From Subtercola lobariae (GTDB lineage: Bacteria; Actinomycetota; Actinomycetes; Actinomycetales; Microbacteriaceae), in assembly GCF_014640255.1 (NCBI RefSeq), contig NZ_BMGP01000003.1, forward strand, positions 248,001 to 312,000: a stretch of DNA of 64,000 nt, read 5' to 3'. How positions within the stretch are numbered: the stretch's first letter is position 1; every line of letters starts with the position of its first letter. Positions 41,984 to 44,071 of the stretch are shown piece by piece. The position numbers and the translations under genes are program-made. The notes under the pieces were generated by a model. It did not search any database. It saw only the letters and a program-made list of their open reading frames with translations, and was not told where the DNA came from.

Positions 41984-43173
41984 CCACGACCAGCACGTTC
42001 ACGGCCACGGAGGCCGTCGAACTAGCCGTCGTCGAGCGCAGCGGCTTCGTCGAATCGCGCCACATCGGCTCGGCCGTCGTGGTCGGGGCGGCCGGCGAGG
42101 TGCTCCGTTCGCTCGGCACTCCCTCGGCGCCCGTCTTTCCACGCTCCTGCCTGAAGCCGTTCCAGGCGCTCACCGTACTCGAGGCTCTGGAAGCCGCCGA
42201 GCTCGCGGCCGGCGAAACCGGAATCAGCGGCGAACGCACCCGCGACCACGCCGCAATCGTCCACGGCACCGGAAACGGCACGGGCACCGGCTCCACCTCC
42301 AGCTCCGAGCCTGCGACCTTTACCGGCACTGGTACTTCCGCTCGCAACGGCACAGGCACAGGCACAGGCACAGGCACAAGGTACGCCGCAGGCAGCGACG
42401 TTGCGCTCGACGCCGTGCAGACGGTGCTGGCCACGGCCAGCCACGCCGGTACACATCGGCACGTCGAGGTGGTCGACTCTATCCTCGCCAAAGCAGCACT
42501 CGGCCGCGATGCCTTGCAGTGCCCCGCAGACTGGCCCGGAGACTCCGCCACGCGAGACGAACTCGTGCGAGCGCACGAAGGCCGAGCATCCGTCTACATG
42601 AACTGCTCAGGCAAACACGCAGCCATGCTCTACGCCTGCCAGGTGAACGGATGGCCGACCGAAACCTACCTCGACCTCGACCACCCGTTGCAGCAGAAGA
42701 TCGCGCAGAACGTCGAGCGGCTGACCGGCGAGCCCATCTTCGCCACCGGTATCGACGGCTGCGGCGCCCCGATTCACGCCGTTTCGCTCACCGGGCTAGC
42801 CCGAGGCATCGGCCGAATCACCTCTGCCACCAGCGGGCCCGCCGCCACCCTCACGGCCTCCGTTCTAGCCAACGGATGGGCCATCGACGGCCCGGGCCGC
42901 GCCAACACCCTCGTCATCGACGAGTTGCACGTGCTCGCCAAGCTCGGCGCCGAGGGAGTCATGGTGATGTCGGTGCCCGGCCGCGCCACCGTCGCCCTCA
43001 AAATGCTCGACGGCAACCTCCGTGCCGCGTCTCTCGTAGGACTCACCCTTCTCGTCTCCGCCGGCGCCCTCACCCAACCTCAGCTCGACGCCCTCCTTCC
43101 CCGCCTAGACCTCACGGTCTACGGCGGCACCACCCCCGTAGGCACCATCCGGCTCTCGCCCACCCTCACCTAA
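41980..43173 (+). CDS. L-asparaginase II family protein with repeat insert and altered 3' end
   Basis: This 397-residue protein of the asparaginase II/AnsA-like family (PF06089 type) opens with AVELAVVERSGFVESRHIGSAVVV, with catalytic-type motifs PVFPRSCLKPFQAL and MNCSGKHAAML, and ends at LSPTLT. It converts asparagine to aspartate and ammonia. The GTG overlaps the gabT stop. A Gly/Thr/Ser insert of about 40 residues (HGTGNGTGTG...; nt about 42260-42385), partly encoded by GGCACA repeats, interrupts the N-terminal half. The stop codon lies at the junction of the first and second units of a large tandem array, so the native C-terminal codons are now displaced downstream. Confidence 0.85.
   Translation: MTTTSTFTATEAVELAVVERSGFVESRHIGSAVVVGAAGEVLRSLGTPSAPVFPRSCLKPFQALTVLEALEAAELAAGETGISGERTRDHAAIVHGTGNGTGTGSTSSSEPATFTGTGTSARNGTGTGTGTGTRYAAGSDVALDAVQTVLATASHAGTHRHVEVVDSILAKAALGRDALQCPADWPGDSATRDELVRAHEGRASVYMNCSGKHAAMLYACQVNGWPTETYLDLDHPLQQKIAQNVERLTGEPIFATGIDGCGAPIHAVSLTGLARGIGRITSATSGPAATLTASVLANGWAIDGPGRANTLVIDELHVLAKLGAEGVMVMSVPGRATVALKMLDGNLRAASLVGLTLLVSAGALTQPQLDALLPRLDLTVYGGTTPVGTIRLSPTLT
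42349..42378 (+). repeat. GGCACA hexanucleotide repeat, five copies, in the asparaginase gene
   Basis: Five perfect GGCACA units encode Gly-Thr repeats inside the enzyme. A unit change of 6 bp keeps the reading frame, so copy-number change would be tolerated. Confidence 0.95.
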
Positions 43174-44068
43174 ACCTCAGGGTCTACCGCGGCACCACCC
43201 CGTGGGCGCCATTCGGCTCTCGCCCACCCTCACCTAGACCTCACGGTCTACCGCGGCACCACCCCGTGGGCGCCATTCGGCTCTCGCCCACCCTCACCTA
43301 GACCTCACGGTCTACCGCGGCACCACCCCGTGGGCGCCATCCGGCTCTCGCCCACCCTCACCTAGACCTCACGGTCTACCGCGGCACCACCCCGGTGGCG
43401 CCATCCGGCTCTCGCCCACCCTCACCTAGACCTCACGGTCTACCGCGGCACCACCCCGTGGGCGCCATTCGGCTCTCGCCCACCCTCACCTAGACCTCAC
43501 GGTCTACCGCGGCACCACCCCGTGGGCGCCATTCGGCTCTCGCCCACCCTCACCTAGACCTCACGGTCTACCGCGGCACCACCCCGTGGGCGCCATTCGG
43601 CTCTCGCCCACCCTCACCTAGACCTCACGGTCTACCGCGGCACCACCCCGTGGGCGCCATTCGGCTCTCGCCCACCCTCACCTAGACCTCACGGTCTACC
43701 GCGGCACCACCCCGTGGGCGCCATTCGGCTCTCGCCCACCCTCACCTAGACCTCACGGTCTACCGCGGCACCACCCCGTGGGCGCCATTCGGCTCTCGCC
43801 CACCCTCACCTAGACCTCACGGTCTACCGCGGCACCACCCCGTGGGCGCCATTCGGCTCTCGCCCACCCTCACCTAGACCTCACGGTCTACCGCGGCACC
43901 ACCCCGTGGGCGCCATTCGGCTCTCGCCCACCCTCACCTAGACCTCACGGTCTACCGCGGCACCACCCCGGTGGGCGCCATCCGGCTCTCGCCCACCCTC
44001 ACCTAGACCTCACGGTCTACGGCGGCACCACCCCGGTAGGCGCCATCCGCGTGTCCCCCACCTTCGCC
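43106..44068. repeat. 64/65-bp tandem array, 15 units, derived from the asparaginase 3' end
   Basis: Units begin at 43106, 43171, 43235, 43299, 43363, 43427, 43491, 43555, 43619, 43683, 43747, 43811, 43875, 43939 and 44004. The first (inside the gene) and the last two are 65 bp; the other twelve are 64 bp. Eight consecutive units (43427-43938) are identical. Each complete internal unit has a TAGACC-tcac-GGTCTA hairpin and a CCAC-CCC-GTGG hairpin. The gene's TAA lies at the start of unit two. No spacers are present, so it is not a CRISPR. This accounts for most of the 1.1 kb without an intact gene. Confidence 0.97.
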
Positions 44069-44071
44069 TAA
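44003..44071 (+). pseudogene. Displaced original 3' end of the asparaginase gene
   Basis: The last array unit reads LDLTVYGGTTPVGAIRVSPTFA followed by TAA, in one uninterrupted frame. It differs in its final codons from the array type and looks like the ancestral end of the asparaginase gene, now separated from the rest by array expansion. Confidence 0.65.

Follow-up and report, generated by a model that had tools for sequence, protein, structure and literature searches.

MIRU-type repeats of Mycobacterium are tandem repeats with units of tens of bases that stand at gene boundaries and are dispersed over many loci. REP sequences (palindromic units) and BIMEs are small palindromes located after genes and dispersed in the genome, and Rho-dependent terminators are characterized by a C-rich, G-poor untranslated stretch. 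VNTRs that overlap stop codons are described in Yersinia pestis, where, in the excerpted text of one survey, 10 of 88 VNTRs have this position, and the authors expected such repeats to have less effect on ORFs, yet saw low diversity at some of them (PMC3689786). REP/palindromic units and BIMEs are also named in an excerpt of a second report (PMC2884548).

The window (the whole stretch of DNA analysed, 64,000 nucleotides of Subtercola lobariae) contains a tandem array with a period of 64 at positions 43104–44046 (14.7 copies, 97% matches, score 1768; Tandem Repeats Finder, TRF), which, once cut at the unit boundary, comprises 15 head-to-tail units at 43105–44067 as assembled. The unit lengths in order are 65 bp, twelve times 64 bp, 65 bp and 65 bp, and the edit distances of units 1 to 15 from the core unit are 5, 2, 0, 1, 3, 0, 0, 0, 0, 0, 0, 0, 0, 2 and 10. 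Units 6–13 are eight successive identical copies, as read in the original prediction, and unit 3 is likewise identical to the core; units 4 and 5 each differ by one edit from unit 14. The score is far beyond chance, the next best in 864 kb sampled from this genome being 285. The array begins at the end of an L-asparaginase II gene, which is preceded by a class III aminotransferase gene; the features of the locus are as follows.

41980..43173, + strand: L-asparaginase II gene of 397 aa, with a GTG start and a TAA stop at 43171–43173 within the first bases of unit 2 (Pfam PF06089, E=3.2e-90)
43102..43107, + strand: left microhomology CGCCTA, at Arg-Leu codons, extending into unit 1 (edge words: left CCCCGC/CTAG versus right CTTCGC/CTAA)
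43105..43169, + strand: unit 1 (65 bp), which encodes the C-terminus of the asparaginase
43170..43425, + strand: units 2–5, the variant left edge, each of 64 bp (unit 3 being identical to the core)
43426..43937, + strand: units 6–13, eight identical 64-bp copies
43938..44002, + strand: unit 14, 65 bp, two edits from the core
44003..44067, + strand: unit 15 (65 bp), likely the older end of the gene (IRVSPTFA followed by a stop at 44069–44071), with IRVSP common to the nearest relative and some Herbiconiux
44065..44070, + strand: right microhomology CGCCTA, at the likely older stop codon (from the edge-word comparison)

Head-to-tail copies of a unit of at least 10 bases at one locus, the mark of a minisatellite or VNTR, are thus found here, and the units abut without spacers, unlike those of a CRISPR array, in which identical repeats are separated by different spacers. 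The locus resembles the stop-overlapping VNTRs of Y. pestis in its head-to-tail units, in having the stop inside the repeat with a first copy that keeps the protein end, and in a copy number that is expected to matter less to the protein; it differs in size, with 64–65 bp in about 15 copies, whereas the excerpted Y. pestis text gives motifs of 1–60 bp, 84.1% of them 7–21 bp (PMC3689786). Some of the Y. pestis loci varied little between strains, again as excerpted (PMC3689786); the array here is known from one genome. With MIRU-type repeats it shares tandem arrangement, a unit of tens of bases, a gene boundary and an actinobacterial host, and with REP sequences and BIMEs the presence of small palindromes after a gene; unlike either, it is not dispersed, and unlike the latter it is derived from the coding sequence of the neighbouring gene.

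A genome search for the unit elsewhere, which had been proposed as a check, found one locus only: in the 4.09-Mb, 22-contig assembly, all 15 matches lie within the array. With two joined units as the query, five of 398 genomes of the family (own genome included; drawn from a larger group) matched, and no such array was found in the 397 others; besides the own genome, these are two genus mates, matched at their asparaginase gene end, which is single-copy, and two weak matches (E about 8e-4, 31 and 53 bases). None of 86 orthologous gene ends (95 loci, from which nine same-genome repeats were dropped) has this unit in the form of an array. Four units searched in plasmids and phages gave no match, nor did an exact 27-base core searched in viral contigs.

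Growth of the array from the 3′ end of the gene, as originally predicted, is supported. Unit 1 continues the reading frame of the gene and encodes LDLTVYGGTTPVGTIRLSPTLT, ahead of the gene's own stop at 43171–43173, and unit 15 in its own frame reads LDLTVYGGTTPVGAIRVSPTFA and then a stop. The C-terminal end of close orthologues reads LDLTVYGGTxPVGxIR(V/L)..., and the IRVSP of unit 15 recurs in the nearest relative (L010) and several Herbiconiux; among other Subtercola ends, six have IRL like unit 1 and two have IQV. The reading of the first unit as coding therefore stands, and that of the last unit as the original C-terminus is favoured by IRVSP but weakened by the six unit-1-like ends, so that unit 15 is probably, though not surely, the older gene end. 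The suggestion that the last codons had been replaced by a truncated end does not stand: as read from the translated sequence, unit 1 holds the whole conserved C-terminus with its own stop, the asparaginase end is intact, and the array past unit 1 lies after the stop.

A two-step history would account for this arrangement. In the first step, slippage between two CGCCTA words 65 bases apart, one at the Arg-Leu codons (with Leu 22 codons ahead of the stop) and the other at the stop codon itself, would have produced a 65-bp tandem duplication, of which the join reads CCTAG; the first copy would thereby have retained an in-frame stop, leaving the protein unchanged. In the second, units would have lost one base (giving 64 bp) and acquired a few substitutions, and slippage or unequal recombination, perhaps aided by hairpins, would have amplified one version in the middle, with variant units remaining at the edges. 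Units 4 and 5 may have arisen from a unit like unit 14 by loss of different bases. The presence of CGCCTA at both edges is expected of replication slippage, and recent slippage, one of the origins first proposed, also fits the identical core between variant edges, which suggests recent expansion from inside and would make the core the youngest part of the array. Persistence would follow if copies after the stop are tolerated.

The array is thus probably a single-locus bacterial minisatellite (a VNTR-like array) that is unusually large, near-neutral and protein-silent, rather than a new kind of element; it appears to have grown from the gene end by plausible slippage, and any function is putative at most. 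The original statement that no described element has this origin is too strong, since stop-overlapping VNTRs are published, at least in the excerpted Y. pestis survey (PMC3689786), and smaller stop-spanning duplications are present at other ORFs of this genome. A literature search found no paper on Subtercola tandem repeats, on tandem repeats downstream of stop codons, or on Rho together with convergent genes. Several observations run against the minisatellite reading: the size of the array is an outlier (the scores of 1768 and 285 given above), the core has more structure than expected from its composition (z of −2.25 or −2.68), the C excess of the unit is extreme, and the array RNA has a strongly negative z, which repetition inflates (values for both below). 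On its own, the array would be a large minisatellite and possibly a useful strain marker.

An assembly artefact, with a wrong copy number or a false expansion, is highly improbable: the assembly is in 22 contigs and the eight identical units (512 bp) exceed short-read k-mers, which makes the count uncertain (k-mer limits as excerpted from PMC6868369), but the array is anchored by six units that are not identical to the core. Selection for a structured RNA or DNA element with repeated hairpins, the other origin first proposed, is very unlikely. The core unit has a folding z of −2.25 on the plus strand and −1.49 on the minus strand, and, relative to its composition, its fold is better than that of unit 1 (−1.86) or unit 15 (−0.98). 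A pair of units gives −5.79 and −3.79, and the whole-array RNA −14; because shuffling destroys repetition, these figures are inflated, and they were not used as evidence for selection. In raw folding energy, which ignores composition, the core does not stand out (of 85 distinct orthologous 66-base ends, 67 fold at least as stably, and among 2000 random variants each, its energy is attained by 13.7% for unit 15 and 7.8% for unit 1), but this control is misleading because the composition of the orthologous ends varies. When each sequence is compared with its own dinucleotide shuffles, the z of the core is −2.68, compared with a mean of −0.60 (sd 1.14) for the orthologous ends, only three of 85 of which reach the core; the core unit is thus unusually structured for its composition, and this count, opposite to the raw one, weakens the minisatellite reading. 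On the other side, the TAGACC-tcac-GGTCTA palindrome is older than the array, being already present in the coding copy and, in its inner part, in S. boreus (CTCGACCTCACGGTCTAC). Both small inverted repeats had been predicted for every complete internal unit; they are present in core units, but unit 2 breaks TAGACC-tcac-GGTCTA without compensation. Pairing between units through CCGCGG follows from repeating a self-complementary word, and no Rfam family matched 42900–45500 at E values up to 1. Slippage promoted by hairpins would leave a similar pattern; it and selection both fit the core structure, and promoted slippage needs less.

It is also unlikely, if less so, that the array serves as a transcription-termination buffer, in which an untranslated RNA of about 900 nt past the stop codon, rich in C and poor in G, would load Rho and prevent asparaginase transcripts from entering the next gene and the transporter operon that converges on it. 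By composition alone, the array has the C-rich, G-poor untranslated stretch of Rho-dependent terminators: C/G is 2.21 over 967 bp versus 1.35 in the coding part, and YC dimers make up 28% versus 19%. The C excess of the unit is extreme (C−G 0.27), being reached by one of 548 80-base 3′ tails, which may be the gene's own, and by none of the 300-base CDS ends. This C-rich composition was, though, taken over from the parent gene end by copying, and selection is not needed to explain it. The permease gene is convergent in all 47 loci, the own one included, in which it was found among the 87 surveyed (86 orthologues and the own locus), and an unrelated array of 104 bp in 5.2 copies occupies the same junction in one Herbiconiux MAG; but the permease lies at most 260 bp away in 42 of 46 relatives, leaving no room for such an array, and at the own locus another same-strand gene comes first. 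The Herbiconiux array is palindromic and starts 7 bases after the asparaginase gene (L052:4973–5523; L156 of G325 shows the same array), and several relatives' asparaginase/permease junctions with the permease within 260 bp carry long palindromes of unrelated sequence. A terminator scan of 42900–45500 returned three weak sites, all on the minus strand and none inside the array.

The wider pattern, in which small stop-including tandem duplications are concentrated at gene ends within the part of the genome that was sampled, is of more interest than the array alone. In the own-genome sample (864 kb, 40 stretches plus the window; ORFs of at least 200 aa called mechanically, so that figures are rough), TRF coverage is 1.4% inside ORFs, 3.0% outside them and 6.5% in the zone from +25 to +50 past a stop, and tandem repeats span 18 of 547 stops versus 4 of 524 starts (Fisher p=0.004), the 18 stops representing 16 arrays as two pairs share one array each (L147, L149). 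A smaller sample (464 kb of the own genome, ORFs of at least 250 aa) has 15 of 251 stops spanned, and the relatives' 80 loci 6 of 406; in eight other genomes the counts are 0/61, 4/53, 0/58, 1/69, 1/56, 1/59, 0/67 and 1/69, with two of the four in G005 sharing one array. Arrays lie in 19 of 96 convergent versus 9 of 103 divergent spacers of the own genome (p=0.04), and in 16 of 98 versus 5 of 82 in the eight other genomes (p=0.04).

The asparaginase end itself is repeat-rich across relatives: in 80 named loci, its stop is spanned or closely followed by an array in 15 of 79 cases versus 23 of 381 for other stops (p=0.0005), a comparison in which the orthologues lack independence and some of the other stops belong to genes within operons. 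For spanned stops alone, the difference is not significant (4/79 versus 7/381, p=0.10). A tandem repeat spans the asparaginase stop in 5 of 86 orthologues, and arrays starting at −10 to +100 from it are listed for 11 loci; 329 family genomes had a C-terminal match, and junction arrays were looked at in the 30 loci listed. It is conceivable, but on balance doubtful, that in this high-GC actinobacterial family the zone after stops, chiefly convergent ones, is a hot spot for stop-copying tandem duplications driven by termination or colliding transcription, with the asparaginase array as its largest product in the own-genome sample, multiplied by hairpins and maybe now a transcription buffer. Such a hot spot is weakened by the controls (the change of sample size, the shared arrays and the p=0.10 for spanned stops alone), and tolerance alone, the protein being unchanged by copies after the stop, may explain the gathering of duplications at gene ends. 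The pattern makes testable whether gene ends provoke duplications in addition to tolerating them. Large arrays also occur outside this genome, as another family genome (G073) carries a 185-bp tandem array in 5.4 copies with a score of 1494 (L239:9983–10986).

Downstream of the array, window positions 44312–45284, between the asparaginase and permease genes, contain a gene whose second part carries a DUF559 domain; because it occupies two overlapping frames (44273–44782 and 44664–45284), it looks broken by a frameshift. It is flanked by two similar 44-base palindromes of the GACGCAAAAGC...TTTTGCGTC type (44172–44215 and 45267–45310), one more of which is present in the 864-kb sample (L186:2601–2644), and GAGGT is repeated about 12 times at 45327–45385, between the DUF559 and permease genes. 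Within the asparaginase gene, which was matched in 10 of 12 genomes of the genus (own genome counted), residues about 73–137 (window 42196–42390) form a low-complexity Gly-Thr-rich stretch (GTGTGTGTG) that is skipped by the matches of genus mates. Breaks at other points in several of these matches (near residues 285 and 335) suggest that the gene has further in-frame inserts.
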